23,473 nt of DNA from positions 1 through 23,473 of the IMG/VR virus record IMGVR_UViG_3300009177_000117. One strand, 5' to 3'. Shown here one piece after another: positions 4,649 through 23,473 of this stretch; positions within the stretch are counted from its first letter, which is position 1; the number at the start of each line of letters is the position of its first letter. A program made the position numbers and the translations under genes. The notes under the pieces are model-generated. The model did not search any database, was not told the origin of the DNA, and was given only the letters and a program-made list of their open reading frames with translations. The DNA is from a virus.

Positions 4649-7600
4649 ATGAAGCCCGAGATCACGATCTACGTTCGACCCAGCCTGCTCACCGACGAGC
4701 GGGCCGTGTACGAGACGTCGAGTCGGTTGTGTCTGAGCGAGATCATTGAGACTTACGTCCCCGAGCTGGCGCGTGATTGTCCTGACCTGATCGACATCAG
4801 CATCAACGAGGGCGCGCCGATCCCGCCGATGCGGCTGCACGCGGACGGCTCCGAATACTTCCCGTGGGAGGTGATCAGGCCGAAGCCTGGCGCCCGCGTC
4901 TACATCCGTTTGAAGCCGCCCGAGGGCAGCCAAGGCGCGCAACTAGGAATCGGTGCTGGGTTATTCACGCTCGGCGCGGTTCTGTTTGCCACCGGCATCG
5001 GCGGGCCAATCGGTATCGGGCTCATGTTCTCTGGTGCCGGCATGGTCGCTGGAGGACTACTTCAGCCGCCCGCACCGAAGAACAACTCGACAAGCCAGGC
5101 CACTTCCTTTTCCCTCACTGGCACTCAGAACGGCATCGCCCAGGTCGGTCAACTAGTGCCGTTCGTTGCTGGGCGCTGGAACAAGGTATTTCCGCTCCAC
5201 GTCGCCCAACCTTACACGACCTGGCAAGGTTCTACCCAGTATATGCACTGCTTGTTGAGTGCGGGTCTCGGGCCGCTCCTGATCAGCAACGTACGGATCG
5301 GCGACACGCTGATCGACGACATGAAAGGCGTCACATGGCAGCTCCGCTCGGGTCGCGACACTGATGCGCCGACGACTTTGTATCCGAGCGTGGTCTACGA
5401 GGCGCTGAGCGAGCCGCACGGCCAGGCGATCCAAATCACCCACAGCGCGCCCGGTGCGCAAACGGTGCAGATGCCGGCCGGGACCGTCGATCACTTGTTC
5501 TGGGAATTCACGTTCCCGCAGGGCATCTTTCGGGTCAGCAGTTCGGGCAAGGTCAGCAGCAGTTCGGTCACGCTCAAGATCGAGCTTCGCCACTTGGGCA
5601 GCAGCGCATGGACGACCGTCGATCATCACACGGTCTCCAAGAAGGCCCAGAACACCACTCGCTACTTGTTCGACATGGACGTCACGCCGAATCCAAGTGG
5701 TTGGGAATCAAGGGTCACGCGTGAAAGCTTCGACAACAGCGGTGACAACAGTGGCAAGAGCACCAACGGGTTCTATTGGACGGCGTTCCGAGGTCATTCG
5801 AGCGTCGCGCCGGTCAGAGTCCCGGGACATTCCCTGATCGCGCTGAAGATCCCAGCCACCCAGAGCAACCAGGGCTCGCTTGCGCACATCAGCTGTGATT
5901 GCACCAGGTACGCGCTGAGCTGGGACGGGTCGCAGTGGGCGGAAGTGCCGACGGCCAATCCAGCGGCCGTGTTTCGATCGATTCCCCAACACCGTCGTGC
6001 GAACCGCGGTGAGATATTCTTCGATTCCCAGATCGACCTGGCAGGTCTGCAAGCCTGGCACCAACGGTGTGCCCAGGCGGGGCGGACCTTCGGCTTCGTC
6101 TCCAGCGACGAGGCCTCGATGCTCGACCGCCTGCGGGTGGTCGCGAGCGCGGGACGCGCCAGCTACAACACCATCGACGGCAAGCTCGGCGTTATAGAGG
6201 ACCTGCCGCAGGCGCACTACGTCGATGCGATCGGGCCGCACAACTCGGCAAATTTTGTCAAACGGGCCAGTTATCGACGCCTGCCGCACGGCGTGCGGAT
6301 CTCATTTCACGACCAGACGCACGAGATGACCCGCCAGGAGATCGTCGCTTACAACGACGGCTACAACGCGGGCGGCACGTCTGGAAGGACCGCGGCCAGC
6401 ATCTTCGACGACATCGACCTCACCGACCGAGGCATCACTTTCCCGGCCAGGGCGTGGGAGGAAGGGCGGTTTTACCTCGCCGAACTGCAGCATCGCCGCT
6501 GGACGGCGACGCAGGACATGGACATCGGCGGCTTCTTCGCCCGCCGCGGGGAGAAGGTTTCGCTGACCCAGCCGGCGGCTCTGCTGGGCATCGCCGACGG
6601 CTACATAACCGCCATCTCGACCAGCGGCGGAAGCGTGAGTGGGATCACCCTGAGCGCCTCCGTCCTGATGGAGGCGGGCACGACCTACGGCGTCCGCGTG
6701 ACGACGACGACGTCGGACGGAGGCACCCAGCTGGTCGAGGTCGGGGTCGTGTTCTCGGCCGGCGTCCACAATTCGCTGTTGTTTCAGACGCTGGTCTCGC
6801 CGGCCACCGCCCCCATTGTGGTGGGCGACTATTTCCAATTCGGCGAGACGTCGGATGTCGCGGTTGACGTCATAGTCAAATCTGTGTCGCCCAAGGGGCC
6901 GCGCGAGATTTCTGTTGAAGTTGCGCCCTACGCACATCCTGAGATCGAGGACGCGATCAGGGGCGACATCGACCCCTACGATCCGCACACGACTTTGCCG
7001 CAAGGCCAGCCTAAGCCGCCGCCGAGGCCAGCGATCGTGGCCATTCGCAGGGGTGAGTTGATCCCGCCGCGGGAGCCTTACCCAGTTCGGATGGTCCAAC
7101 TGACGGTGATAATCACGTCGCCACCGTCGTCGGCGACGAACGCGAGCTTCTTCGATGCGCAGTACCGCGTCCAGGATGACACGACGGGGGAGTGGACCGC
7201 GGCGTCGGCGTCGACGTCCGGTCTCGACGTCTCGTTTTTGGTGCCGTGGGGAGAAATCTACGAAATCCAAGTCAGGGCTGGCACCGTCTACAACGGGCTG
7301 CCGCTGACGTCGGCGTGGTCTAATACGGCGGTCGTCGATTGCAAGACGATCCCTCAGACGATCGTCGACACCGCGAACGTCACGGGCCTGCAGTTGTTCG
7401 GGCAGGGCCACTTGACCAACTTCGTCGGCCGCGATCCGCACTTTGTATGGCGGATGACCGGCTTTTCTGGGCCGGCGGAGATCGGGGAAGAGGAAAACCA
7501 GGGCGACACGACCTTCCTCGATCCGACCTTTGCGTATTGGGACGTGCGCATTTACACGAGCATGTCGACCCAGCTCAGGCGCACCGAGGCGGTGACCGCG

Positions 7601-9295
7601 CCAGATTACGTGTACAGCTATGAGAAGAACTACGTCGACGGCGGGTCGTTGTCTGGCTCCGTGGTGATCCCCTCGGCGCCGCAGACTGAGACGTGGTCAG
7701 ACGGCACCCAATGGACCGACGGGACGGCTTGGGCGGGACAAAGCGCCGTCGTTTCTCAATCGTTGAGCGGGGTTGCCCGACAGATCACGATCGAGGTTCG
7801 GATCGTCGACACCTACGGTCGGCAGAGCCGGAACCCGGCAAGGTTGACCGTTCAGAACCCAGCGCCGTCGCAGGTCACCGGGCTGAGCGTGACGACGAAC
7901 ATCGGAACTATCTGGGTTTCATTCAATATACCCCCCGACCCGGACTGGGTCGGCATGAAGGCATGGGCCAGTACCACGACCGGCTTCACGCCCGATGACG
8001 CGACGAATTTGCTGGGCAAGCTCAACACCTGCGCTGCCTCCTTCAATACATTCGCCAACGGCGCTCCGGTCCTGCCCGGCGTGCTCTATTATGTGCGGGT
8101 TGCCGCCTATGACGCCTTTTCGGACCTCGCAGCCGATCTCAACGTGAGCGCTGAGATCGAGGTCGTGACGGGCACGGTCGACGTCAGCGACCTGCCGATC
8201 TACACGTTCGACCCTGCGCCGATCTTCACGGTGGCGTTGGGCGCCCCGGACGTTTTGTCTTGGACGGCGTCGGGCGTCCACGTGACGCGCCCGGTCAGCG
8301 GCACGACCGACTCGCGGAGCATCGGCGCCGGAAGCGTGTCGTGGGGCGGCCAAACGATCTACGTTTCGTATCAGGAATTATCAACGGTCCTGACGGCCAC
8401 GACCGACATCACGGTGCACGTGCGCAGCGATCGCACGTTGATGGCGGTGTGGGAGTACCCGGGCGGTCAGAACGTCACAGCCTTGAACGGTAAGGCCGGC
8501 ATTTCGGGCGAGATGATCTACGCGCACACGATCACGGGTCAGGCACTTGTGACCGACAGGGCGATCATCACTTCTCAATTGCAAGTTCAGAACGCCATGA
8601 TCACCAACGCGAAGATCGTTGATCTCGACGCGAGCAAGATCCTCGCCGGCAGCGTTTTCACGCAGCTGCTTTATCTCGGAGCGGCCACCGGCGGACGCAT
8701 CACGATCGACGGCACTTTCCCCGTCCTCAATGTCTGGGACGACCAGCCCGTGCCCCACCTTCGGGTGCGGATGGGCAAGCTCGGACCGGCCACCACCGAT
8801 TGGGGGCTGCAGGTCAACGGTGCCGACGGCACGAACCTGATTGATTTCGAGGGCGGCATCGACGGGTCCTATATCAAGGACCTGACCGTCGACACGCTCA
8901 AAATCAGGAACGGCGCGTTGTCGTCCACTTGGTGGGCTGTGCAGTCTAGTTCATACGGTATCTCTAACGGCGACACTAGCGACCATGGTGTCGTACAGTT
9001 GGTCGCTAACCTCCGCGCCTTGTCGAACGGGTTTGTCCCGCCCGTGATCATTCAGTATGAGCTAGTATGCTCCTCTACGGCCGGCGGAGGTTTCGCCTCC
9101 ACTATGATTATCAGTGATGGGCACAACATAAGCGAGATCAGTTCCCCGATCGGCAATGGAGCCAGGATCAATAAAATCTTCGTTGACCAGAATCCGAATG
9201 TAGGCTCCACGACCTACAATATCAGGATCAACACGAACGGCAACCAATCCACTATCAAACTCGGTGCTCTCCTCGCGCAGCAGTGGCTGAAGTAA
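4649..9295 (+). CDS. J: Tail tip / host-specificity protein J (TipJ-like, 1548 aa)
   Basis: This is the longest gene and sits right after the NlpC/P60 peptidase, as lambda J does after K and I. The order is an N-terminal assembly region with a Gly-rich hydrophobic stretch at about 99-137 (IGIGLMFSGAGMVAGGLL), then hub-like beta domains to about 800. FNIII-like beta-sandwiches follow at about 808-905 and 1071-1175 (PAPSQVTGLSVTTN and YYVRVAAYDAFSD). Next is a central-fibre helical segment at about 1291-1340 with repeated TNAKIVDLDASKI-type turns, and a variable C-terminus that probably binds the receptor. J trimers form the tip and central fibre. At 1548 residues it is longer than lambda J (1132). 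ATG 4649 has CACGGGCAG upstream. The stop overlaps the next ATG by one base. Confidence 0.85.
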   Translation: MKPEITIYVRPSLLTDERAVYETSSRLCLSEIIETYVPELARDCPDLIDISINEGAPIPPMRLHADGSEYFPWEVIRPKPGARVYIRLKPPEGSQGAQLGIGAGLFTLGAVLFATGIGGPIGIGLMFSGAGMVAGGLLQPPAPKNNSTSQATSFSLTGTQNGIAQVGQLVPFVAGRWNKVFPLHVAQPYTTWQGSTQYMHCLLSAGLGPLLISNVRIGDTLIDDMKGVTWQLRSGRDTDAPTTLYPSVVYEALSEPHGQAIQITHSAPGAQTVQMPAGTVDHLFWEFTFPQGIFRVSSSGKVSSSSVTLKIELRHLGSSAWTTVDHHTVSKKAQNTTRYLFDMDVTPNPSGWESRVTRESFDNSGDNSGKSTNGFYWTAFRGHSSVAPVRVPGHSLIALKIPATQSNQGSLAHISCDCTRYALSWDGSQWAEVPTANPAAVFRSIPQHRRANRGEIFFDSQIDLAGLQAWHQRCAQAGRTFGFVSSDEASMLDRLRVVASAGRASYNTIDGKLGVIEDLPQAHYVDAIGPHNSANFVKRASYRRLPHGVRISFHDQTHEMTRQEIVAYNDGYNAGGTSGRTAASIFDDIDLTDRGITFPARAWEEGRFYLAELQHRRWTATQDMDIGGFFARRGEKVSLTQPAALLGIADGYITAISTSGGSVSGITLSASVLMEAGTTYGVRVTTTTSDGGTQLVEVGVVFSAGVHNSLLFQTLVSPATAPIVVGDYFQFGETSDVAVDVIVKSVSPKGPREISVEVAPYAHPEIEDAIRGDIDPYDPHTTLPQGQPKPPPRPAIVAIRRGELIPPREPYPVRMVQLTVIITSPPSSATNASFFDAQYRVQDDTTGEWTAASASTSGLDVSFLVPWGEIYEIQVRAGTVYNGLPLTSAWSNTAVVDCKTIPQTIVDTANVTGLQLFGQGHLTNFVGRDPHFVWRMTGFSGPAEIGEEENQGDTTFLDPTFAYWDVRIYTSMSTQLRRTEAVTAPDYVYSYEKNYVDGGSLSGSVVIPSAPQTETWSDGTQWTDGTAWAGQSAVVSQSLSGVARQITIEVRIVDTYGRQSRNPARLTVQNPAPSQVTGLSVTTNIGTIWVSFNIPPDPDWVGMKAWASTTTGFTPDDATNLLGKLNTCAASFNTFANGAPVLPGVLYYVRVAAYDAFSDLAADLNVSAEIEVVTGTVDVSDLPIYTFDPAPIFTVALGAPDVLSWTASGVHVTRPVSGTTDSRSIGAGSVSWGGQTIYVSYQELSTVLTATTDITVHVRSDRTLMAVWEYPGGQNVTALNGKAGISGEMIYAHTITGQALVTDRAIITSQLQVQNAMITNAKIVDLDASKILAGSVFTQLLYLGAATGGRITIDGTFPVLNVWDDQPVPHLRVRMGKLGPATTDWGLQVNGADGTNLIDFEGGIDGSYIKDLTVDTLKIRNGALSSTWWAVQSSSYGISNGDTSDHGVVQLVANLRALSNGFVPPVIIQYELVCSSTAGGGFASTMIISDGHNISEISSPIGNGARINKIFVDQNPNVGSTTYNIRINTNGNQSTIKLGALLAQQWLK

Positions 9296-10035
9296 TGGCA
9301 GGCTTCCTGATTTATGCGCTGTCAACGGGAGGACTGGTGAGGATCGGGAATGTCCCGGACGGAGAGGAACTAGTACAGGCAACAGCCGGCGAGGGCGTCT
9401 TGTTGAACGACGACCTAACCGTGTCTGGAGATACCCATTGGGTCAATCTCGGTCCGCCGGCGGTCCTGACGGCCAAGACCGCCATGGCCACCAGCATCGA
9501 CAGGACCTACATCGCAGCCGCGTTGAGCCAGGTTGCCACGATCACCGGCGTGCCGCAGGGGGCAAGGTTCTTGGTCAACGACGTCGACAAGGGCCGGGTC
9601 GACGACGGCGTGGTGACCTTCTCGGCCGCGGCGGTCGCGCGCTATGCGTTGACCCTCACGCACTATCGTTACCTTGACCAAGCCTACACGGTGGACGTAG
9701 GTCTCGCTCTGCTCGCCGCGGCGACCGAGACCGAGTATGCCGTCAGTCTGGGCTCGCCGCTGACGCCGGCGATCGAGACTGAAACGGCGCTATCGGCTGG
9801 GCAGGAGCGGACCAGCCAGCTGACGGCGGCGAGCGAGACCGAGACCGCCGTCGCCGCTGGCATGGTGATCCAGGTTAATCTCGACCTGGTGTCAGAGACC
9901 GAGAGCGCGGTCGATGCATCGGCACCGCTGCCAGCTGCGACGGCAACGGAAACGGCGTTGGACATCGTCTTCAGCATCACCGTCCAAGTGCCAGAAGCAG
10001 TCGAAACCGAAACGGCGCTGGACGTCGCAGCTTAA
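9295..10035 (+). CDS. Tip-associated protein with C-terminal ETETA repeats (246 aa)
   Basis: The ATG at 9295 shares its A with the TAA of J (TAATG), which suggests translational coupling; an in-frame GTG at 9283 would add four residues. Residues 1-60 (FLIYALSTGGLVRIGNVPD, then EELVQATAGEGVLL) resemble the small proteins that follow J genes in several phages. Residues 60-135 form a beta domain ending ALTLTHYRYLDQAYTVDV. From about 143 the protein is a repeat in which a short ETETAL-like motif recurs every 16-20 residues, six times, to the C-terminus. The repeats could form a thin fibre shaft or a flexible spacer. A role as tip cap or fibre attachment is inferred from position. Confidence 0.65.
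   Translation: MAGFLIYALSTGGLVRIGNVPDGEELVQATAGEGVLLNDDLTVSGDTHWVNLGPPAVLTAKTAMATSIDRTYIAAALSQVATITGVPQGARFLVNDVDKGRVDDGVVTFSAAAVARYALTLTHYRYLDQAYTVDVGLALLAAATETEYAVSLGSPLTPAIETETALSAGQERTSQLTAASETETAVAAGMVIQVNLDLVSETESAVDASAPLPAATATETALDIVFSITVQVPEAVETETALDVAA
9715..10030 (+). repeat. In-frame ETE[TYS]A repeats, six copies, 16-20 residue period
   Basis: Within the 246-residue protein the units ETEYAV, ETETAL, ETETAV, ETESAV, ATETAL and ETETAL occur in order, separated by 10-14 small or hydrophobic residues. The DNA copies are diverged, so selection appears to maintain the protein motif rather than recent duplication. Confidence 0.7.
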
Positions 10036-10050
10036 AGGAGCACATGAACA

Positions 10051-10518
10051 ATGGCGGCCTATGTGGCGAATATCTCGCGAGGGCGTGTAACAGAAATGTA
10101 CCGCCGTATCAGTCTAAACGACCCCAATACCAGCGTCTTCAAAGTGATTCTCCTGAAGACCAATGAGGCGGTCGGCACTCTGGTCGACCAGGACACCGTG
10201 GCGTCGATGCTGGCCGCGAGCAGCGAGGCAAACTTCACCAACTACGTACGCAAGGTGCTGACGGACATTAGCCTCGCGGCATTGCCGGCGCCTGACGACA
10301 CGAACAACAAGATGGTGTTGCAGCTCCCGGCGCAGACGTGGACCAGTGCGGGCGGGGCTCTCAACAACACGCTGACGATGGTCTGCGTGGCGTACTTCGC
10401 CGACACGTCAGGCGCGGACAGCACAGGGGTGCCGTGCTGCTTCTACGACTTCGCGACCACGACCAACGGCACCGACATTACGGTCAACTGGCCGAGTGGC
10501 TTCTGGCAATCCCTATGA
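10051..10518 (+). CDS. Conserved phage structural-region protein, unknown function (155 aa)
   Basis: AAGGAG at 10035-10040 lies 10 nt before ATG 10051. A nearer ATG (10044) opens only a short frame. The protein starts MAAYVANISRGRVTEMYRR and reads as an all-beta domain: FKVILLKTNEAVG, YVRKVLTD, MVLQLPAQTWTSAGG, LTMVCVAYFAD and DITVNWPSGFWQSL. The layout (an early 'FKVxLL', then a charged arginine strand, then 'W..AGGxxNNT') resembles small beta-sandwich proteins scattered among phage tail and decoration genes. I cannot assign a role with confidence. A virion decoration or fibre-associated protein is the best guess. It overlaps the next gene by ATGA. Confidence 0.65.
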   Translation: MAAYVANISRGRVTEMYRRISLNDPNTSVFKVILLKTNEAVGTLVDQDTVASMLAASSEANFTNYVRKVLTDISLAALPAPDDTNNKMVLQLPAQTWTSAGGALNNTLTMVCVAYFADTSGADSTGVPCCFYDFATTTNGTDITVNWPSGFWQSL

Positions 10519-10724: not shown

Positions 10725-11135
10725 ATGCCGATAGATCCAACGAAGCCGCTCGACGGTGTTAATTCCATCAAGGCCGACCTGAGGGTCAATCTACAGGCGG
10801 CCAAGGATGGCATCGAGACCGCCGACAGCGTCCTTGCCGGCGGCTCAACCACGATTAGCGCGACGACTTTCGGCAATCACACCTTTGCGCGCATGCGATG
10901 CACGTCGGGAGCTGCGGTGACCGTGACACTGGGAAGCAACGTGCTGGCGGGCTGCGCTCTCGAACTCGTTCAGTACGGCACGGGGCTGGTGACGGCAATT
11001 GCAGGTGCCGGAGCTACCCTGGTGAAACCCGCCGCGGCCAGCACGTCGACCGCGGCACAGTATGACGCCATGATCTTCGAGGTCGACACGAACACGGGCA
11101 GCAACGCTGCCTGGCGGCTGGTCACCCGCTCATGA
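10725..11135 (+). CDS. Stand-alone fibre capping-type beta domain protein (136 aa)
   Basis: AAAGGAGG at 10708-10715 provides a strong ribosome site about 9 nt before ATG 10725. Residues 1-35 (DGVNSIKADLRVNLQAAKDG) form a helix. From about 45 to the end the sequence follows the small beta domain often found at the C-terminus of phage tail fibres. Its elements are AAVTVTLGSN, ALELVQYGTGLVTAIAGAGA, AQYDAMIFEVD and NAAWRLVTRS. That domain normally caps long fibres; here it is an independent gene with only a short helical N-terminus. It may cap or attach the large glycosidase fibre encoded next, with which it overlaps by ATGA. Confidence 0.65.
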   Translation: MPIDPTKPLDGVNSIKADLRVNLQAAKDGIETADSVLAGGSTTISATTFGNHTFARMRCTSGAAVTVTLGSNVLAGCALELVQYGTGLVTAIAGAGATLVKPAAASTSTAAQYDAMIFEVDTNTGSNAAWRLVTRS

Positions 11136-14124: not shown

Positions 14125-16566
14125 GTGGCTCTTCGGACGGGGGCCAATCTACAGACATTCCGCGCTTGGGCTCGGAAAACTGCAGGAACGTCAGATCCCA
14201 CGATCAATATGGAGCTGTGGGAGAACGGGGCTTCGCTCGCCACGCTTCTTAGCTCCAGCCCGGTCTCAAGCACTAGCGGCCAGATTCTAACGGGGGTCTG
14301 GGACGCAAGTCTACTCTCGGATCTGACAGGCGCTGGCGTCGAATGCCGCATCGTCAGCACGCCTGGTGTCGGACAGGTCCCCGATCTGCAGACGATCCGT
14401 CCGAACGCGGCCGTCACCAACGTCAGCATGACGGGCGCGTTTACCGCGATCGACGAGGACCCGGCGTCGAGCGCGGGCGATTGGATCACGGCGACCAGCA
14501 ATATCACTACGGTCAGCTGCAACGCTCCGCTGTCTGACCCATCCACGACGCTTGCATCCGGGGCATTGCTTCAAACGGTCAGAGTGCTTGTGCGTCGGAA
14601 TACACTCACGGCTGGCACCGGGCAGCCGACCGTCACAGTGCAGATCCGCGAGGGCGCGACGACCATCCGTGCGACTCCGATCAGCGCGGTCAGCATTGGC
14701 ACGAACGACGTCGGCATTGTCTTGAGCGGCACCTTTACCTGGCAAGCGGGATGGGATGCCGCTGCCATGCAGGTGTTCGTGCAGGGCAACGTCGGCGGCA
14801 GCGGTAACTCAAGGCGCACGATCGACCTCGGCGCGGTCGCAGTCGACGCGGTTTTGAGCACGACCCACAGCGCTAATACCAACACGGTTGAAATTGGTGC
14901 GATCGAATGGGACGTCGAGCTCGAACTAGTACCGCAGTCAGTCACGTTAGCGACTAACGCCACTTGGGCCTGGGACGATACAACCCTCTGGGACGACGCC
15001 ACGCTTTGGGACGACGCGACCACGGCTGTCGCGACCGGCCTGGCGCCAAGATTTGCCGCCAATGCTGACCTGGCGCCGGCGTTGGCGGCAGCCTCCGCGA
15101 CCGGTGTGGCGCCGACTGTCACGGCCAGCGTCTCGATTGCATCGGGAGTCGGCACCGCTGCCGCAAATGGCATAGCCCCGACCGTCTCTGCTGGACTCCA
15201 GACGTTCGCCACGAGCACGGGCGCGGCAGCTGCCGTTGGTGTCGCGTCGACTTTGGCAGCGTCCAGCGCGTCGGCGCCCAGCGTCGTGACGAGTTTTGCG
15301 ACAGGCGTCGCAGCAACGCTTTCGACGTCTTCCGGGTTGGCATCGCTCGCGGGCGCGGCAGCAGCGACTGGCGTAGCGCCGACGGCCAGCGGCAACTGGG
15401 TCGGCCTCCCGGCCGTCGGGCCAGCTGCGGCGGCAGGCGCAGGGCCGACTGTGGCGGCATCGTTGGTCGCAGCTACAGCTGCGGGGCTGGCGAATGCTGA
15501 TGGGATCAGGCCTGATATTATCGTCAGCGGCGCCGCTCAACTTGACACCAATACTGGTGCGGCTGCGGCTGACGGCGCGATACCAACGCTGTCCATCGGC
15601 TCCTCGCTGAGTACGAGCGCGGGCCTGGCAGCAGCGTCTGGCGCGGCACCGATCGTCAGTGCCGGCGCGCTTGTCGCGACCACGACCGGAAACGTTCCAG
15701 CAACTGGCGCAGCTCCAATCGTCTCTGGTGCCGTCGTCGCGCAAACGGCGGTTGGCACGGCTGATGGTGTCGGCGCGGCGCCCACGTTGGCGGCGTCAAG
15801 CGCCGCGGCGACGAATGCGGGCAGCGCGAGCGGCACTGGTCCGAGCCTTTCGCTCAGTGCAGGCAGTCTCGCAGCGGCAGATGTTGGCACGGCGGCGGCC
15901 GTTGGCTCCCTTACAAATGTGGCGACCAGCGCGCTCATGGGCGTTGCGACTGGGACAGCCGTCGCCAACGGCATCGCTCCAGACTTGGCGATCGCGGGCA
16001 ACAGGTCGGTCTCGCCAATCACTGGCGACGCGACTGCTGCCGGGATCGCGTCCGTCATAAATCTGGGAGCCATCGTCGACACCGCCAATCCCGTAACCGC
16101 GACCGCAAGCGGCGTCGCTCCAAGCTGGGCCCAAAACACGACTGTGCTTCCAGGTGTGGGCGCTGCCGTCGCAAACGGCGTCGCTCCAGCCATATTCGGG
16201 GCGCAACATGTCGCCGTCGCGCCCCTGGCCGGCGCGGCAACGGCGGGCGGTCTGGCGCCCAGCTTCGCAAACATCGTCAGCATCGCGACGAGCACAGGCG
16301 AAGCGGCGGCCGCAGGCCTTGCCCTCAATGTCAGAGGCTCTGCGCTCTGCCTGCCGCACGTCGGCACTGCGGCAGCCGTCGGCATCGCTCCTCATTTCTC
16401 GACCGGGATTGAGCAGGCGTTGACGCCAGCGACGGGCACGGCGATCGCCGACGGCCCCGCTCCAATCTGGCGCGTTGCCGGCTTCTCTGCCACTATCGTT
16501 GATCGAGGCGCGAGATCGCGCTTTACGGATCGGTCGGCATTCGCTCCAAAGGACAAGGCCGCATGA
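14125..16566 (+). CDS. Adhesin with duplicated beta-sandwich and 22-residue repeats (813 aa)
   Basis: The frame begins at GTG 14125; a TGA at 14119-14121 excludes any earlier start. Residues 1-95 and about 105-245 are two diverged copies of one beta domain (GANLQTFRAWARK against GALLQTVRVLVRR). The first copy lacks its N-terminal strands. A short WDD-rich repeat (LWDDAT, about 283-300) precedes roughly 21 degenerate copies of a 22-residue repeat with core AxGxAPT, to about residue 785. The end carries ATIVDRGARSRFTDR, nearly the same as the end of the 738-residue repeat protein at 20268. No signal peptide or sortase motif is present, so it is more likely a virion fibre than a bacterial surface protein. 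It overlaps the spike gene by ATGA. Confidence 0.7.
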   Translation: MALRTGANLQTFRAWARKTAGTSDPTINMELWENGASLATLLSSSPVSSTSGQILTGVWDASLLSDLTGAGVECRIVSTPGVGQVPDLQTIRPNAAVTNVSMTGAFTAIDEDPASSAGDWITATSNITTVSCNAPLSDPSTTLASGALLQTVRVLVRRNTLTAGTGQPTVTVQIREGATTIRATPISAVSIGTNDVGIVLSGTFTWQAGWDAAAMQVFVQGNVGGSGNSRRTIDLGAVAVDAVLSTTHSANTNTVEIGAIEWDVELELVPQSVTLATNATWAWDDTTLWDDATLWDDATTAVATGLAPRFAANADLAPALAAASATGVAPTVTASVSIASGVGTAAANGIAPTVSAGLQTFATSTGAAAAVGVASTLAASSASAPSVVTSFATGVAATLSTSSGLASLAGAAAATGVAPTASGNWVGLPAVGPAAAAGAGPTVAASLVAATAAGLANADGIRPDIIVSGAAQLDTNTGAAAADGAIPTLSIGSSLSTSAGLAAASGAAPIVSAGALVATTTGNVPATGAAPIVSGAVVAQTAVGTADGVGAAPTLAASSAAATNAGSASGTGPSLSLSAGSLAAADVGTAAAVGSLTNVATSALMGVATGTAVANGIAPDLAIAGNRSVSPITGDATAAGIASVINLGAIVDTANPVTATASGVAPSWAQNTTVLPGVGAAVANGVAPAIFGAQHVAVAPLAGAATAGGLAPSFANIVSIATSTGEAAAAGLALNVRGSALCLPHVGTAAAVGIAPHFSTGIEQALTPATGTAIADGPAPIWRVAGFSATIVDRGARSRFTDRSAFAPKDKAA
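15020..16490 (+). repeat. Degenerate 22-residue (about 66-bp) in-frame repeats, about 21 copies
   Basis: The repeating core is [TA]AxAxG[VI]AP[TS] followed by about ten small residues and a glycine. Period is 22 residues, with occasional 23-24. The copies are more diverged than those at 20355-22345, which suggests an older array. The period is a multiple of three and the frame stays open, so this is a protein repeat and not a CRISPR or other non-coding array. Confidence 0.8.
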
Positions 16567-17822
16567 GCTTGATTGACGCCACTTTCCCGGCAACTGGAGC
16601 CGCTGTCAGCAAAGCCGGCGAGCGGGCCAACTGGGCCGCGGCCAAGAGCGAGATCGAGCTGTTTCAGGCCATCGAGGTCAACGTGAAAGCATACGGCGCC
16701 GTCGGCAATAATTCCACGGATGATGGGGCCGCGATCAACGCGGCCATCGCCGCCGCCAACGCGCTCACAGCCGCCGGCTTCGTCACCTTGCGTTTCCCGG
16801 TCGCCAATGGGTACCGGATCAACGCGGCTATGACGGCCCTGGTCCCGAACATCAGCGTGATCATGGACGCCCCAGTCGTCTACAACGCCGCGCCCATAGC
16901 TGTTTTTGTCAAGACCACCGGCGACACCGAGACCCTCAACCACACTGGCGGGAACAATCTGGTGCTATGGTTCCGCACGTCTGGATCGGCGAACTACAAC
17001 ACCCAGACGTTCGGAGGCGTGCGCTGCTATAACTTGATCAACTCCTACGTCCGATTGAAGCAGTTCATTGGCTTCAACATCGGGTTCCAAATGAATGCCG
17101 CGACCGGTCAGTATTGCACCGGCAATCACGTCACCGTCGGCAAGATGGACGCGCAATACGCGGTCGACTTGGTTGCAGACGGCTCGAACGCGTGGATCAT
17201 CCAGAACAGCTTCTACGGGCACGGCCAGATCGGCCACGGCGCGCCGACCACGCTCGACCGCGCGGGCGTCCGCATGCAGTCGATCAATGGCGCGCTCCCC
17301 ATGCACGACAATAAGTTCTACGCGCTGGACGTCGAGTTGAACACGAGCGGTACCAACCGCGCGGATGTCTTCCGCACGATCGGCCAGTGTCGCTTTATCG
17401 CGCGCGACCTGTACTTAGAGACCGACAACAAATTCCTGTATTCAGACGGCGGCGGCTATTGCGTCGCCACGTGCATCGCCGGGGCGGGCGCCACGGACAT
17501 GTTGATCGACGAGCCTACCTACAGCGGCTCGCTCGTTCAGTACGTCGAACAGTATGCCGGGACGCTAGAGACTTCAGCGACGGGCGCGCGCACGCTGACC
17601 CAGAACCACGTCAACAGCCAGCAGCGAAACTCGTCCGGCACGGCGACCTGGACCGTGAACAAGTTCGTGGGTCTGATCACAGTGGACAACGTCGACGGCG
17701 GGACGATCACGCTGTCTGCCGGCACGGGCGTAACGTTGAGCGCGAGCACGATCGCGGCTGGCGCAGTCGCGCGCCTACTGGGCCGCGTCAACGGGACCAA
17801 GGTGCAGGTGATGGTGCCATGA
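16563..17822 (+). CDS. Pectate-lyase-fold tail spike (419 aa)
   Basis: VNVKAYGAVGNNSTDDGAA with INAAIAAANA (about 39-67) is the Pectate_lyase_3 N-terminal signature found in many phage tailspikes. A beta-helix follows, with turns such as NHVTVGKMDAQYAVDL and NKFYALDVELN. A C-terminal beta region ends TITLSAGTGVTLSASTIAAG and VNGTKVQVMVP, typical of trimerising or capping ends. Residues 1-35 (FPATGAAVSKAGERANWAAA) probably form the virion-attachment piece. Spikes of this fold bind and often cleave surface polysaccharides; catalytic residues cannot be chosen from sequence alone. Start and stop overlap the neighbours by ATGA on both sides. Confidence 0.8.
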   Translation: MSLIDATFPATGAAVSKAGERANWAAAKSEIELFQAIEVNVKAYGAVGNNSTDDGAAINAAIAAANALTAAGFVTLRFPVANGYRINAAMTALVPNISVIMDAPVVYNAAPIAVFVKTTGDTETLNHTGGNNLVLWFRTSGSANYNTQTFGGVRCYNLINSYVRLKQFIGFNIGFQMNAATGQYCTGNHVTVGKMDAQYAVDLVADGSNAWIIQNSFYGHGQIGHGAPTTLDRAGVRMQSINGALPMHDNKFYALDVELNTSGTNRADVFRTIGQCRFIARDLYLETDNKFLYSDGGGYCVATCIAGAGATDMLIDEPTYSGSLVQYVEQYAGTLETSATGARTLTQNHVNSQQRNSSGTATWTVNKFVGLITVDNVDGGTITLSAGTGVTLSASTIAAGAVARLLGRVNGTKVQVMVP

Positions 17823-18586
17823 CGATCATTCGGTTCGTCGGTTTCGAGACTGGCGACGTCGCGGAGTTTGACGCCAAGAACGCCAACGTCACGAACGTGA
17901 ATAGCCTCAAGACGACTCCCGGTGTCCGCAGCGGGACCTACACCTGCCGCCTCGCTTCGGCGATCACATCGACGGCGTGGGGGCAGATCAACTTCACATC
18001 GCCGGGGGCGACGTGCGGGATCAAGTGCGGCCTCTGGATCGCGGCATTGCCGAGCACCGATCCCCAAGAGATCGTGACCGGTCAGGGCGCGGCCCTGCAG
18101 TTCGCTGTGCGGGTCGGTAGTGACGGCAGGTTACGCGTCTACAAAGGCAACGAGACGACCCTGCAGGCGACTGGCACGAAGGTCCTGGCAATCAACACGC
18201 AGTATCGGATCGACGTGAAGTACGTCAACACCAGCAACACCTCGAAGACGGTCACGGTCAATGTCGATGGTGCTACTGTTGCCGACATCGACACGACATG
18301 GACCGAGACCGCTCAGAATTTGGTCAACGTATACTTCGGCGTCGGCACGAACTACAACACAGCGACTTATGACTTCTACTTTGACGACCTGACGGTCGCT
18401 AATGATTGGGTGCCGTCGATGCTGATCCCGAACGCCATCGCGGCGAGCACGAACCTCACCGGAACCATCTCCACGCTGGTCGAGCCGGTCGACGTGCCGG
18501 CCGCGACATGGCTCACGGCGACCAGTGTTAGCGCCGTCACCGACCTCCGCGTCAGTTTTCCGACGCCAGCGTTCAATCTGCTATGA
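17819..18586 (+). CDS. ConA/LamG-like lectin protein with truncated C-terminal domain (255 aa)
   Basis: ATG 17819 overlaps the spike stop (ATGA). The frame is open further left, but only as a shadow of the spike gene. Residues 1-200 read as a jelly-roll lectin-like domain: IIRFVGFETGDVAEFDAKN, GRLRVYKGNETTLQ, YRIDVKYVN and TYDFYFDDLTV. The gene at 18669 is its paralogue over this whole part. Residues about 203-255 (PNAIAASTNLTGT, WLTATSVSAVTDL) match the region around residues 93-145 of the 813-residue protein, but the gene stops where that domain should continue. It probably binds surface glycan as a virion appendage. No catalytic motif is evident. Confidence 0.7.
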   Translation: MTIIRFVGFETGDVAEFDAKNANVTNVNSLKTTPGVRSGTYTCRLASAITSTAWGQINFTSPGATCGIKCGLWIAALPSTDPQEIVTGQGAALQFAVRVGSDGRLRVYKGNETTLQATGTKVLAINTQYRIDVKYVNTSNTSKTVTVNVDGATVADIDTTWTETAQNLVNVYFGVGTNYNTATYDFYFDDLTVANDWVPSMLIPNAIAASTNLTGTISTLVEPVDVPAATWLTATSVSAVTDLRVSFPTPAFNLL

Positions 18587-18666
18587 GCTTAACTGGCGGC
18601 GCAAACCTCCTGTCGCAACAGCTCGCTGTGACCGAATCCGTGATTCGAGTTCGCACTAGAAGCTGA
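18583..18666 (+). other. 27-codon frame holding a remnant of a beta-sandwich domain
   Basis: An ATGA overlap starts a 27-residue frame (MSLTGGANLLSQQLAVTES...) that ends 2 nt before the next gene. It contains LTGGANL, which resembles the TGANLQTFR and SGALLQTVR segments of the 813-residue protein. It lies exactly where the truncated C-terminal domain of the preceding gene would continue. It may be a frameshifted remnant or a tiny coupled gene. Confidence 0.4.
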
Positions 18667-18668
18667 CG

Positions 18669-19787
18669 ATGACGCTCTTAAATTTCTCTGGTGTGGAAAG
18701 TGGCAACATTGGCGAGTTCGACTCGAAGAACGCCAACGTCAACACGGCCAACGCCATCAGCACGTCGCATCCGCGAAACGGTACGTATTGCTTGAATCTA
18801 AACTCCACCATCACCGCGGCTTGCTGGGTTTTGTTGTCTTGCACCGCGGGCTCTCCCAGGGCTGTCCGGTTCGGGTTTTACGTGGCCACGCTTCCGACTG
18901 GTGGCAACGAGGAGATCTGCGGATGGGATAGTGCCACGCAACAGGAAGGTGACCTGCAAATAGGCACCGACGGCATATTGCGTTTATATGCCCGCGACGG
19001 CACCACTGTGCGGGCCACGGGTACGGCAGTCCTAGTTACGGGTAGATGGTATTGCATCGAAATCATGGTCACAAATACTGCGAATACATCAAAGACAGTC
19101 CAAGTTCGGGTCAACGGAGCGACTGACATAGCAGACACTTTGACGACGGAGACCACGGCTAACGTCATTGATTTCTTCTTCGGCGTGGGTACCATCAAAC
19201 ACGCGTCGACTTATGATTATTATTATGATGACATGGCCGTCGGGGATGACTGGATAGGTGACGGAAAATGTGCCGTGGTTACAGGTAAGACAGGCGCACC
19301 TACCTATGACAACTGGACTAAATCCAGCGGAACTACAGCATTCAACTTGTGGTCTGAGATACCGTTCAATGTCACCAACCAGTGCATCAGCCCATCTGGC
19401 ACATCTAATGCCCAAACTGAGTTATTGGCAGCCACGAGTACTATAGTCGGGTCGAACTCGATAGTGAACGCGGTCAAGGTTGGCATGGTGGCGAAACTCA
19501 GCGCGGGGACAGCGAGGACGTACGCGATCCGCTTCAGATACAGCGCCGCTGATCACGACACCACGAGGGTCGTGACGACTTCCGATGCATATTGGCAGAC
19601 AGCCGTGGTCACGGGATTGAGTCTGGCTACGTTGGACGCGGCGGAGATCGGCGGCGTCCGCAGTGGCACGACGTCCGGAGCGCAGTTTCAAATCGAAGAT
19701 ATCTGGATGTTCGTAGACTACATCCCGCATTATGCTGATCCAGCGGCTAGCAAGCGCAAGAGCTTCCAGCACATGCTTGTGAGGTGA
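18669..19787 (+). CDS. Lectin-like paralogue with extra C-terminal beta domain (372 aa)
   Basis: Residues 1-200 are paralogous to the preceding 255-residue protein: LLNFSGVESGNIGEFDSKN, GILRLYARDGTTVRATGTA, WYCIEIMVTNTANTSKTVQ, and TYDYYYDDMAVGDDW in place of TYDFYFDDLTVANDW. Residues about 205-360 form a second beta-rich domain (WSEIPFNVTNQCI, VNAVKVGMVAKLSAG, AQFQIEDIWMFVDYIPHY) ending KRKSFQHMLVR, a layout seen in phage appendage proteins. The DNA up to about 19480 looks less GC-rich than its paralogue, which suggests a separate origin of this copy rather than a recent in-place duplication. Probably another glycan-binding virion protein. Confidence 0.7.
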   Translation: MTLLNFSGVESGNIGEFDSKNANVNTANAISTSHPRNGTYCLNLNSTITAACWVLLSCTAGSPRAVRFGFYVATLPTGGNEEICGWDSATQQEGDLQIGTDGILRLYARDGTTVRATGTAVLVTGRWYCIEIMVTNTANTSKTVQVRVNGATDIADTLTTETTANVIDFFFGVGTIKHASTYDYYYDDMAVGDDWIGDGKCAVVTGKTGAPTYDNWTKSSGTTAFNLWSEIPFNVTNQCISPSGTSNAQTELLAATSTIVGSNSIVNAVKVGMVAKLSAGTARTYAIRFRYSAADHDTTRVVTTSDAYWQTAVVTGLSLATLDAAEIGGVRSGTTSGAQFQIEDIWMFVDYIPHYADPAASKRKSFQHMLVR

Positions 19788-19793
19788 GTCAAA

Positions 19794-20261
19794 ATGGCCA
19801 GGATGTACAGCATAGCTTTCGACAACATCGCCGTCAGCGCGGCTCAGGATCTGTTTGAAATAGCCCCAGCGGCGACCGCCGGGGTGATCATCCACGGCTT
19901 GGTGATGGGACAATCGACGGACTATGGCGATGCAGCTGCTGAGGGACTGCGGGTGCTCATCATTCGCGGCTACACAGTCAGCGGTTCGGTCGGCTCTTCG
20001 GTGACGCCGACACCCCTGATTCCAGGCGGCGCGGCTGCCAGCAGCGCTTGCGAGCGCAACAACACCACCGTGGCCAACACCGGATCGCCGGTCACGGTTC
20101 ACGCGGATTGTTGGAACATTCAAGCGGGCTATCAGATGTGGTGGACGCCCGAGACCAGGATCTACGTCGCCCCGAGCAGCCGCGTCGTGGTCAACCTGCC
20201 TGCAGCGCCGGCCGACGCCATCACCATGTCGGCCACGCTCTACTTTGAAGAGACGGCATAA
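19794..20261 (+). CDS. Conserved phage protein of virion gene clusters (155 aa)
   Basis: GAGGTGAG lies before ATG 19794, and the previous stop is 6 nt upstream. The sequence MYSIAFDNIAVSAAQDLFEI followed by VIIHGLVMGQSTDYGDAAAE, LRVLIIRGYTVSGS, NIQAGYQMWWTPETRIYV and MSATLYFEE follows a pattern I recall from small beta proteins in many phage and prophage structural regions. Their function is not known to me. It probably forms a compact beta-sandwich and may be a decoration or fibre-base protein. It is followed after 6 nt by the large repeat protein. Confidence 0.7.
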   Translation: MARMYSIAFDNIAVSAAQDLFEIAPAATAGVIIHGLVMGQSTDYGDAAAEGLRVLIIRGYTVSGSVGSSVTPTPLIPGGAAASSACERNNTTVANTGSPVTVHADCWNIQAGYQMWWTPETRIYVAPSSRVVVNLPAAPADAITMSATLYFEETA

Positions 20262-20267
20262 CCTCTG

Positions 20268-22484
20268 ATGTTCGTCTTCCGCCAATATACCAGAACGAGA
20301 CGACGTCTCGCCTTCGTGGGCGGCGGAGTATCGCCTGACGTCGTTCTTACACCTGGCGTTGGTGATGCAGCAGCCACTGGCGTGGCGCCCACGCTCGCCG
20401 CCTCGTCGCTCATGGCGACTGCCGTCACGGACAACGCGGCGACCGGCGTTGCACCAACGTTTGCAGCCCATGCTTCACGCGCACCAGCTTTGGGGGATGC
20501 TGCTGCCACTGGCGTTGCGCCAACGTTGGCCGCAAGTTCGACAGCGGCGACTTCGGTCGGCAACGCCTCGGCCACGGGCGTCGCCCCGACCCTGGCTGCG
20601 TCCAGCCTGGCGGCCACCAGCGTTGGGACCGCGGCAGCCACTGGCGTCGTTCCGACCGTAGCCGCATCGAGCCTGGCAGCCACCAGCGTCGGCACGGCAT
20701 CGGCAACGGGCGTCGCCCCGACGTTCGCGGCCGGCCTCAGTCGCGCGCCTTCCGTAGGAGACGCTGCTGCCGCTGGTGTCGCGCCTACGGTGGCGGCGGC
20801 AATCCTGGCGGCAACCAGCGTCGGATCTGCATCGGCCACGGGCGTTGCCCCGACTCTGGCTGCTGGTTCGACGGCCGCGTCCTCGGTCGGCACGGCAGCC
20901 GCAGATGGCGTCGCGCCCACAGTCTCGGTCACCACAGTCATATCAATCACTGCCGCGACTGACGTCGGCACTGCTGCGGCTGCCGGCGTCGCGCCGACTG
21001 TCTCCATCACGGCGGACATCAGTCGCACGCCTGCGGTGGGCACGGCAGCCGCGGATGGCGTCGCGCCGACGCTTGCCGCCGCCAGCCTCGTTGCAAGCGA
21101 CACCGGTACTGCCGCCGCGACTGGTGTTGCGCCGACGGTAGCGCTGAGCGCATTGCGCGCGCCAGCGGTAGGTGATGCGGCCGCGACTGGCGTCGCTCCG
21201 ACCGTGACCGGCAGCGCCAACGCGACGGTCGCGACCGACACCGGGACCGCTGCCGCCACGGGCGTGGCTCCGACCCTCGCCGCGTCCATACTCGCCGCGA
21301 CCAGCGTCGGGACAGCAGCGGCAAACGGCGTCGCTCCGACGGTGGCCGCATCCTCCACGGTTGCGACCAGCGCGGGCACAGCCTCGGCGACCGGCGCCGC
21401 CCCGACCATCGCGACATCGTCGACCGCGGCCACGAGCGCCGGATCGGCGTCTGCCGTTGGCGTGGCCCCGACCATCACAGCATCTATCACGGCCGCCACG
21501 AGCGTCGGCAGCGCGGATGCCGACGGCCTCGCTCCAGGAGTTGCGGCTGCCGGCTCGGTCTCAGTATCGCCCGACACGGGCACGGCGGCTGCGGACGGCG
21601 TTGCGCCGACCTTGTCCATCGGTTCCAGCTTGGCGACGTCCGTCGGCTCGGCGACGGCTGGTGGCGTGGCGCCGACCTTCGCAGCCTCCGTCAGCCGCGC
21701 GCCTTCCGTCGGGACTGCGGCCGCCGACGGGGTCGCTCCCACGCTGTCTGCAGGCTCTCTGGCGGCTACGGCTGCGGGATCGGCGGCGGCGACTGGCGTT
21801 GCCCCTACCGTATCTGTCACCAGCAACATCGACGCGCAGCCGAGCACGGGCACGGCTGCCGCCACCGGCGTCGCCCCGACGATCGCGGTCGGCTCCAATC
21901 GGACGCTTACGGTAGGCACGGCTGCGGCCGCAGGTGTCGCGCCGACTTTCGCGGCGCATGTTCCCGCGTTGCCTGCAGCTGGCTCCGCGTCTGCTGTTGG
22001 TGTCGCGCCCACGGTCAGTGCATCGGCCAGCCTAGCGACGAGCACTGGAACTGCCTCTGCGATTGGCGTCGCGCCCACGGTCCAGGCTGGTCAAGACGTT
22101 CACGCGCTGCCGACCGTCGGCACCGCTGCCGCCACCGGCGTCGCCCCCACAGTCGCCGCGGGCGCGACTTATCAAACCGCGTCTGGATCAGCGTCCGCTG
22201 ACGGCGTCGCGTTGACGATTGAAGCTGGCAGCGACGTTGCCACAAATCCAGGTGACGCGACGGCTGGCGGCGTGGCCCCGTTCTGGGCCGCCGGGACGAT
22301 CGCGATCCTCTACCCAGAGACAGGTGACGCGACCGCGGACGGACTTGTCGTGGTCTTCCGCCAACGCGATATTTCTGCCACTTTGAGCGACCGAGGTCCG
22401 CGTGGTCAGTTCAACGATCGAGCCGCGAGGGCTGGCTTCGGTGACAGAGGCCCCAGAGGCAGCATCAAGGATCAAGCGGCATGA
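20268..22484 (+). CDS. Long 22-residue-repeat fibre-like protein (738 aa)
   Basis: A short basic and aromatic N-terminus (FVFRQYTRTRRRLAFVGGG) is followed from about residue 30 by about 30 tandem copies of a 22-residue repeat. The consensus is xA[AS]AxGVAPT[VLF]AA plus about ten Ser/Thr/Ala residues ending VG. There are no Cys, few charges and no aromatic residues through most of the array. The last 37 residues hold two DRGPRG motifs (ATLSDRGPRGQFNDR, then FGDRGPRGSIKDQ). With one coil per repeat at about 4.8 angstrom rise, the array would be roughly 14 nm long. The same repeat and tail occur in the 813-residue protein. A virion shaft or fibre is the best guess, though a low-complexity surface-coating protein is possible. 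It overlaps the next small frame by ATGA. Confidence 0.7.
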   Translation: MFVFRQYTRTRRRLAFVGGGVSPDVVLTPGVGDAAATGVAPTLAASSLMATAVTDNAATGVAPTFAAHASRAPALGDAAATGVAPTLAASSTAATSVGNASATGVAPTLAASSLAATSVGTAAATGVVPTVAASSLAATSVGTASATGVAPTFAAGLSRAPSVGDAAAAGVAPTVAAAILAATSVGSASATGVAPTLAAGSTAASSVGTAAADGVAPTVSVTTVISITAATDVGTAAAAGVAPTVSITADISRTPAVGTAAADGVAPTLAAASLVASDTGTAAATGVAPTVALSALRAPAVGDAAATGVAPTVTGSANATVATDTGTAAATGVAPTLAASILAATSVGTAAANGVAPTVAASSTVATSAGTASATGAAPTIATSSTAATSAGSASAVGVAPTITASITAATSVGSADADGLAPGVAAAGSVSVSPDTGTAAADGVAPTLSIGSSLATSVGSATAGGVAPTFAASVSRAPSVGTAAADGVAPTLSAGSLAATAAGSAAATGVAPTVSVTSNIDAQPSTGTAAATGVAPTIAVGSNRTLTVGTAAAAGVAPTFAAHVPALPAAGSASAVGVAPTVSASASLATSTGTASAIGVAPTVQAGQDVHALPTVGTAAATGVAPTVAAGATYQTASGSASADGVALTIEAGSDVATNPGDATAGGVAPFWAAGTIAILYPETGDATADGLVVVFRQRDISATLSDRGPRGQFNDRAARAGFGDRGPRGSIKDQAA
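20355..22345 (+). repeat. Tandem 66-bp in-frame repeat array, about 30 copies
   Basis: The unit encodes 22 residues, with a few units of 24-26. Neighbouring copies around 20540-20740 are nearly identical (for example repeated GCCACCAGCGT), while distant ones diverge in third positions. That pattern is expected if unequal crossing-over continues to change the copy number. Confidence 0.85.
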
Positions 22485-22612
22485 GCTCGAAATCCGTGAA
22501 CATCCAAGTCAAAGAAGGCGCTGCAACCGCCGATGGCGAGAAGTCCAGCGTGTCGGCATCGGCGTCCATGGCGCCCGCCACCGGCGTTGGCATTGTGAGG
22601 GCTGGTAAATGA
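22481..22612 (+). CDS. Tiny repeat-like protein between ATGA overlaps (43 aa)
   Basis: The ATG at 22481 overlaps the stop of the large repeat protein, and its own TGA overlaps the ATG of the next gene; both junctions are ATGA. The product starts MSSKSVNIQVKEGAATADG and ends MAPATGVGIVRAGK. EGAATADG and APATGVG resemble pieces of the 22-residue repeat. Exact overlap at both ends supports translation. Function unknown; it may be a small partner of the repeat protein or a decayed repeat unit kept for coupling. Confidence 0.5.
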   Translation: MSSKSVNIQVKEGAATADGEKSSVSASASMAPATGVGIVRAGK

Positions 22613-22977
22613 GCGACCCTATCTACGACATCGCCGATCGTCGCACGCTCGGCTACGACGTGGTCGACGACATGGGCAATCCTGTCGATCCCGAATTCAT
22701 TTCGTTTTTGATCACCGAGCCAGGCGGGCGCAAGACGAAGATCGTCACGGGCGATCCCGAGCTGACCAACCCGGCAGTGGGCACCTGGGAAGTCACTTTC
22801 GTCTGCGCGAGACCAGGACGCCATGTGGTCAGGGTCGAGACGAGCGGCAACGTCCAGATGGGCGACGAGTATTTCTTTCAGGTGCGCAGGCCGCAAGCAT
22901 ACAAGGTCGGCGAGTTCGTGCTTGGTCGCGGACGCGCGATTGCAGCTGGCGTGGCGCCGACCGTGTCCGCCGCGTGA
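22609..22977 (+). CDS. Small Ig-like phage protein with one C-terminal repeat unit (122 aa)
   Basis: Residues 1-100 read as a single Ig-like beta-sandwich: IYDIADRRTLGYDVVDDMGN, FISFLITEPGGRKTKIV, TWEVTFVCARPGRHVVRVE and DEYFFQVRR. This is a layout common in small phage proteins that start with 'YDIGDRR'. The last residues (GRAIAAGVAPTVSAA) are one copy of the 22-residue repeat core that fills the two large proteins upstream. The natural domain appears to end near VRRPQAYKVGEF, so the tail looks added. The ATG overlaps the preceding small frame. It is the last gene before a strong hairpin. Confidence 0.7.
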   Translation: MSDPIYDIADRRTLGYDVVDDMGNPVDPEFISFLITEPGGRKTKIVTGDPELTNPAVGTWEVTFVCARPGRHVVRVETSGNVQMGDEYFFQVRRPQAYKVGEFVLGRGRAIAAGVAPTVSAA

Positions 22978-23165: not shown

Positions 23166-23473
23166 ATGGCCGCAGGTGCGTGGAAATGGTTTGGCGCAGG
23201 TCTTTTGTCGACCGCCACTGGCGGCATCAACCTGAACACCACACCAGGCGATCATTTCAGGATGGTCCTGGTTACGTCGAGTTGGACGCCAGCGCAGACC
23301 ACGGATGCTACCTGGACGACTCTATCTGCCAACGAGGTCGCCAATGGCGGCGGCTACACTACTCACGGCAAGACACTTACCGTCACGACCACCAGGACCG
23401 GCTTGGTCGTTAAATTCTCGGTCGACGACCAGTCCTGGACCACCTCGACCATCACCGCCAAGTATGCTGTGAT
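23166..23473 (+). CDS. Small phage structural-region protein, partial (C-terminus beyond window)
   Basis: The frame from ATG 23166 (GGAG 8 nt upstream) or ATG 23148 is open to the window edge. The 102 readable residues begin MAAGAWKWFGAGLLSTATGG and contain FRMVLVTSSWTPAQTTDATW, NEVANGGGYTTHGKTLTV and a last segment SWTTSTITAKYAV. This matches a common small phage family of about 120-140 residues with the patterns 'IKVALVTSxYTP', 'EVxGxGYTxGGxxL' and 'STITARYAVIY'; function unknown, often near tail or head genes. ATG 23166 fits the family N-terminus best. About 20-40 residues probably lie beyond the window. Confidence 0.7.
   Translation, partial: MAAGAWKWFGAGLLSTATGGINLNTTPGDHFRMVLVTSSWTPAQTTDATWTTLSANEVANGGGYTTHGKTLTVTTTRTGLVVKFSVDDQSWTTSTITAKYAV

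Follow-up and report, generated by a model that had tools for sequence, protein, structure and literature searches.

Two proteins of an uncultured phage carry an alanine-cored variant of a 22-residue repeat series that adjoins tail wing arm homologues in many phages

We found that two proteins of 813 and 738 residues, encoded in a viral DNA of 23,473 nucleotides (IMG/VR virus record IMGVR_UViG_3300009177_000117, positions 1 to 23,473; this whole stretch is here called the window), are built largely from tandem 22-residue units. These units are an alanine-cored variant of a repeat series common to many unrelated phages, including minor tail proteins of mycobacteriophages. We regard it as reasonably probable that both ORFs encode tail-appendage proteins of the virion, in which a rod of these repeats is paired with an arm of the PHROG_644 family; the virion location, the attachment to the arm, the rod shape and the adhesive role we infer.

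Gene context of the repeat arrays

The window encodes a lambda J-like protein whose closest relatives are found in Bradyrhizobium, Rhizobium and Rhodobacter phages, indicating that the window lies in the tail-tip region of a siphophage. The features of this region are as follows.

4649..9295, + strand: lambda J-like central tail protein (phrog_31), by profile match
10051..10518, + strand: 155-aa protein, phrog_26662, with a weak phrog_644 match
14125..16566, + strand: 813-aa repeat protein, GTG start
14125-15009: N-terminal domain of the 813-aa protein, about 290 aa, no family match
about 15010-16491, + strand: GVAPT array of the 813-aa protein, the more degenerate one, about 22 units of 22 aa
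16563..17822, + strand: tailspike-like protein between both repeat genes, weak pectate-lyase-type match
17819..18586, + strand: 255-aa putative adhesin, paralogue of 18669-19787
18669..19787, + strand: 372-aa putative adhesin (phrog_2448)
20268..22484, + strand: 738-aa repeat protein, ATG start
about 20352-22379, + strand: GVAPT array of the 738-aa protein, about 30 units
22609..22977, + strand: 122-aa ORF, weak sub-threshold Filamin-type match, C-terminus with an isolated repeat core GVAPTVSAA
23166..23471, + strand: start of a PHROG_644 gene (Bxb1 tail wing arm relative), cut at the contig end

The first-pass annotation had placed the arrays in a tail adhesin cluster, and tail and adhesin genes indeed surround both repeat genes. 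The two adhesin genes at 17819-18586 and 18669-19787, which lie between the repeat genes, are tandem paralogues with 43% identity over 200 aa and are part of a duplicated adhesin cluster. The 155-aa protein is a possible second arm-like gene, and the stray core in the 122-aa ORF is perhaps a remnant of array recombination.

Several other proteins of the region have unusual architectures. The 250-aa ORF behind the J-like gene (9283-10035) has its own repeat of about 16-20 residues with the core ETETA(L/V), unlike GVAPT. An unusual fusion at 2556-4232 places a right-handed beta-helix (Pel9A-like) ahead of a DUF1833/minor tail domain. The 990-aa protein at 11132-14104 has a central LamG domain with flanks that look glycoside hydrolase-like by eye, and no other Pfam match. 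The N-terminus of the 813-aa protein (14125-14420) seems to begin partway into a beta-rich domain that recurs further downstream, which makes the first copy look truncated.

Structure and age of the two arrays

The 738-aa protein consists of a 28-aa N-terminus, about 30 units with the consensus TSVGTAAATGVAPTVAASSxAA, and a 34-residue C-terminal tail (SATLSDRGPRGQFNDRAARAGFGDRGPRGSIKDQAA), while the 813-aa protein has a domain of about 290 residues, for which a search for relatives found none, about 22 units and, at the C-terminus, a short charged tail. Against a threshold set by shuffled sequences, 29 units were detected in the 738-aa protein plus one degenerate last unit (PETGDATADGLVVVF...), and 18 in the 813-aa protein plus four degenerate ones recognized by eye, close to the 30 and about 21 copies that had been claimed. 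The claimed 22-residue period was confirmed by lag-22 identities of 0.46 (738-aa) and 0.29 (813-aa), the shuffled maxima over all lags being 0.21 and 0.20, with the refinement that units are spaced by 22, 24 or 26 residues only in the 738-aa protein and by 22-24 in the 813-aa protein. Charged and aromatic residues are as scarce as proposed (DEKRH 5.4% and 4.8%, FWY 1.3% and 2.2%, for the 738-aa and 813-aa proteins, respectively). Since their C-termini resemble each other on inspection (SATLSDRGPRGQFNDR... and SATIVDRGARSRFTDR...), the two genes are probably paralogues.

Unit pairs of the 738-aa array, compared at conserved residues, mismatch at a rate of 0.05 for codon position 1, 0.06 for position 2 and 0.62 for position 3, the random expectation for position 3 being 0.68. 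The randomised third positions together with the near-invariant cores indicate that the repeat duplications are old and that the protein sequence is under strong purifying selection. Tandem arrays can grow by slippage, and the relatives described below differ in unit number; however, the closest pair of units shares only 74% DNA identity and is not adjacent, and with third positions near random, a recent slippage expansion without function is hardly credible. The concentration of mismatches at codon position 3 also identifies the sense frame as the selected one. An antisense ORF of 612 aa was ruled out as a real gene by this codon-position variation and is considered a by-product; its repeat profile showed no in-register match to the relatives.

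A repeat series across phages

No credible match to the window repeat proteins was found in Pfam, PHROGs or NCBIfam, and the 22-residue repeat itself has no Pfam or NCBIfam family, so the search for a named family suggested by the first-pass annotation returned no model naming it. A named 22-residue phage repeat was not found in the openly available papers searched either. A phmmer match to a Roco leucine-rich repeat protein (6e-7) was rejected, as it reflects period and composition only; judged by the leucine-rich repeat pattern LxxLxLxxN and Pfam LRR, there was no Pfam LRR match and no Asn ladder.

Searching named phages and viral contigs directly with the window ORFs as protein queries gave no match, after which we used a DNA pattern with two GVAPT/GAAPT cores at a spacing of exactly 22 codons. 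This pattern occurred in 40 viral contigs, while a control with one extra base occurred in 2. Upon inspection, 32 of the 40 contigs encode real repeat proteins with units such as TPSVGALTLTGVAPTVVRGTII, which aligns with the window unit in register. To assess this register, the anchor columns (G10, A12 and P13) were masked and 5000 column permutations were made. For the 738-aa protein, shift 0 against the relatives was the best of 22 and was reached by 0 of 5000 permutations; for the 813-aa protein, p was 0.0006. The relatives in turn match, likewise in register, units of mycobacteriophages (AALTITGGQPxV) and of Manatee Spring phages (GAYALTGTAAAL). The window units are linked to both only through these intermediates, and their direct register test against mycobacteriophage units gave p = 0.22.

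A tblastn search with one relative (L024) retrieved 53 phage records, mostly mycobacteriophages, many of them labelled minor tail protein. PHROGs files the mycobacteriophage repeat proteins as whole-protein families (phrog_553 and phrog_13352) and not as a repeat; the PHROG_553 HMM matched Yoshi gp26 and left the window proteins unmatched. Our results do not support the idea of a repeat peculiar to this phage, given the 32 repeat proteins in viral contigs and the phrog_553 minor tail proteins. A search for the GVAPT tandem in 84,980 species genomes gave 63 bacterial stretches, most of low complexity and none a real member on inspection, and the single match in 385 genomes of one bacterial class was discarded because of internal stop codons.

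JangDynasty gp61 (L129:1822-2223), a 133-aa minor tail protein with 23-residue repeats encoded directly after a wing arm gene, is possibly a distant version of the repeat; its register test did not reach significance (p = 0.22), and PHROGs links it weakly to phrog_553. Roseobacter phage CRP-902 gp53 (L127:4419-5345), two genes before a PHROG_644 gene, has a different repeat, GVAGTGAxG, with a period of about 20/40, and ends in WGNNAWGNGTWGNG, similar to the sequence with which some IMG/VR repeat proteins begin.

An all-alanine core in the window units

The window units keep the defining features of the series, namely the period of 22, G4, G10, A12, P13 and a hydrophobic residue at position 15. 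Among the relatives, a large hydrophobic residue occupies position 6 in 84% and position 8 in 88% of units, whereas at both positions 95-100% of the window units have a small residue (alanine or another), and we therefore call the window units a variant. Both core leucines of the relatives' unit are alanine in nearly every window unit, and no other all-alanine double-unit (tandem) pattern was found in the viral contigs. Such a uniform leucine-to-alanine change over about 40 units amounts to a natural experiment on thinning a repeat rod. At the C-terminus, many relatives, among them the repeat proteins of L009, L015, L024 and L039, have a short tandem motif, xNWxxIxDxQTP; the window proteins have DRGPRGxFxDR at this place.

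Pairing with PHROG_644 and the link to Bxb1 tail wings

For the analysis of neighbouring genes, loci were selected by the repeat alone, and those with at least 480 bp of upstream sequence were taken as testable. A PHROG_644 gene on the same strand was located at most 300 bp upstream at 25 of 28 testable viral loci, which span about 9 of 11 lineages in our own grouping and hence do not stand for 25 independent events. The counting profile was seeded from six of these loci, and PHROG membership was independently checked for L024, L015 and L039. Moreover, in four mycobacteriophages, Yoshi, MadMen, Lucky2013 and prophiGD91-2, PHROG_644 is the gene after the repeat gene. The PHROG_644 gene start of the window, at 23166, is 39% identical to Yoshi gp27 and lies 613 bp downstream of the 738-aa ORF with one gene (the 122-aa ORF) between them, while the 813-aa ORF has no adjoining PHROG_644 gene. 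The window arm gene is downstream of the repeat gene, whereas that of the marine relatives is upstream. Judging from these gene orders, the repeat protein and the PHROG_644 'wing arm' are a conserved gene pair in many tailed phages.

Although PHROGs lists PHROG_644 as "unknown function", Bxb1 gp31, deposited as 'Tail wing arm' (PDB 9d93), matches phrog_644 at 1.5e-42. BLAST alone left Bxb1 gp31 and Yoshi gp27 unlinked (E 0.33), but profile comparison with hhalign linked the Bxb1-type and the window/Yoshi-type subfamilies over their full length (95.1%, E 3e-8). A wing arm homologue is thus encoded near the window repeat genes. In EnzoK, consecutive genes are annotated as tail wing base/carboxypeptidase, tail wing arm and tail wing brush, and in Yoshi the order is gp25 (phrog_382, a minor tail protein with lysin activity), gp26 (the repeat protein) and gp27 (PHROG_644). 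Yoshi gp25 and the EnzoK wing base belong to the same lysin-type family, phrog_382, so the Yoshi repeat gene is flanked by base-type and arm-type genes. Work on phage LeBron matched carboxypeptidase-bearing tail proteins to the Bxb1 wing base (PMC13148394). Among the scanned proteins of the window, which is a genome fragment, no wing base with a D-Ala-D-Ala carboxypeptidase domain was matched. Based on this comparison of gene neighbourhoods, we infer that the repeat protein is a further wing component.

Fold of the repeat

The first-pass annotation had proposed a new shaft-like fold, perhaps a beta-solenoid, and suggested structure prediction as a check. Two AlphaFold runs, both of monomers, were made with window units (50 rows) and L024 units (44 rows), and are not fully independent since the L024 alignment contains three window rows. 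Both predicted each unit to have two strands and no helix, with breaks at A-P-T and T-P-S, at a pLDDT of 63.9 and 62.3 and a pTM of 0.53 and 0.54 for window and L024, respectively. Structural search of the models against the PDB gave no E below 0.001 and TM-scores of 0.1-0.36, and a Foldseek viral library gave matches at E 0.03-0.1, mainly to uncharacterised proteins of uncultured phages and one to a 'Curlin associated' protein. The regular strands are compatible with the proposal; the runs gave no confident coil and no significant PDB match. A left-handed hexapeptide beta-helix was likewise not recovered by structural matching (best E 0.012, TM-scores 0.11-0.21).

A narrow monomeric beta-solenoid with two strands per turn, curli- or FapC-like and with a length of about 14 nm at 30 units, would account for the strands at 2/3-11 and 14/15-19/21 and the turns at A-P-T and T-P-S in both models, for the small inward residues (A6, A8, G10 and A12), for the 24- and 26-residue units, whose two or four extra residues are compatible with strand alternation, and for the 'Curlin associated' phage proteins among the Foldseek viral matches (E 0.07-1). 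The modest pLDDT, the low PDB scores, the lack of a Pfam curlin match, on which an identity with curli was rejected, and the 21- and 23-residue units of relatives argue against it, and the length, which rests on an assumed 0.48 nm per repeat, is not supported by our results; we therefore hold the solenoid as a tentative model. Phage fibres are commonly trimeric, and an obligate homotrimeric shaft with interdigitated beta structure, as in fibre shafts, would be invisible to monomer prediction. The pTM of about 0.5 despite regular strand prediction, and the G/P spacing and alternating hydrophobics of the relatives, are consistent with such a shaft, but known shaft families are unmatched by sequence, and we give it the same tentative standing as the solenoid. 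Flexible low-complexity linkers would fit the composition rich in alanine, threonine, serine and glycine as well as the modest pLDDT; however, position-specific conservation with saturated third codon positions, a regular strand pattern with few residues under pLDDT 50 and the hydrophobic core positions of the relatives make disorder less likely than either solenoid or trimeric shaft, and on the whole unlikely.

Proposed role and comparison with known systems

The PHROG_644 gene context leads us to read the 813-aa and 738-aa proteins as probable shafts of lateral tail appendages. In this arrangement, each protein would start with a short N-terminus or an N-terminal domain, continue as a rod of beta-rich 22-residue repeats and close with a small piece at the C-terminus. 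The array would most likely serve as a rigid spacer or bristle with almost no charge, holding adhesive ends out from the side of the baseplate, and the number of units would set the length of the rod. Several observations weaken this appendage reading: the AlphaFold models reach low to moderate confidence and have no significant PDB match, the 813-aa ORF lacks a PHROG_644 neighbour, one gene separates the 738-aa ORF from the arm gene, the arm gene lies on the opposite side of the repeat gene from that of the marine relatives, the mycobacteriophage match runs through intermediates, and near its arm Bxb1 has the glycine-rich gp33 instead of a 22-residue repeat. A bolder version, which we find possible though doubtful, is that the GxLxLxGxAPxV repeat is an unnamed fold from which lateral 'tail wings', borne on PHROG_644 arms, build their bristles or shafts in phages whose hosts differ widely, and that the all-alanine core found here packs into an unusually thin rod.

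The analysis brings scattered, mostly unannotated phage repeat proteins together as a single series and connects them with a baseplate part of solved structure, the Bxb1 wing arm, and PHROG_644 and its repeat partner gain a shared, testable role as side appendages. As a module of repeat protein and wing arm homologue, they make the tail-appendage role directly testable.

Among known systems, curlin repeats of the CsgA type are of similar length and have two strands per repeat, as predicted for the window units; the window proteins differ in having no Pfam curlin match and in sitting in phage tail gene clusters. The Bxb1 tail wing (base gp30, arm gp31 and brush-type gp33) is similar in that its arm gene family adjoins the repeat gene, but gp33 is glycine-rich without the 22-residue repeat, and the window has no recognisable carboxypeptidase wing base. 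Yoshi gp26, MadMen gp21 and Lucky2013 gp38 (phrog_553), together with prophiGD91-2 gp102 (phrog_13352), share with the window proteins units of about 22 residues with a hydrophobic-x-hydrophobic-x-G-x-x-P core and a short N-terminus. They lie beside PHROG_644, which in the window is one gene away from the 738-aa ORF, and several are annotated as minor tail protein. They have far fewer units (about 5 in Yoshi), a leucine/isoleucine core and a large C-terminal domain, and the window proteins, which do not match phrog_553, are connected to this group via intermediates only. The repeat proteins of uncultured IMG/VR phages (for example L024, L039 and L044) have the same 22-residue register and many units, like the window, and a PHROG_644 gene immediately upstream; they differ in that positions 6 and 8 are Leu/Ile, that positions 17-19 include charged residues and that the C-terminus has NW...DSQTP motifs where the window proteins have DRGPRGxF.
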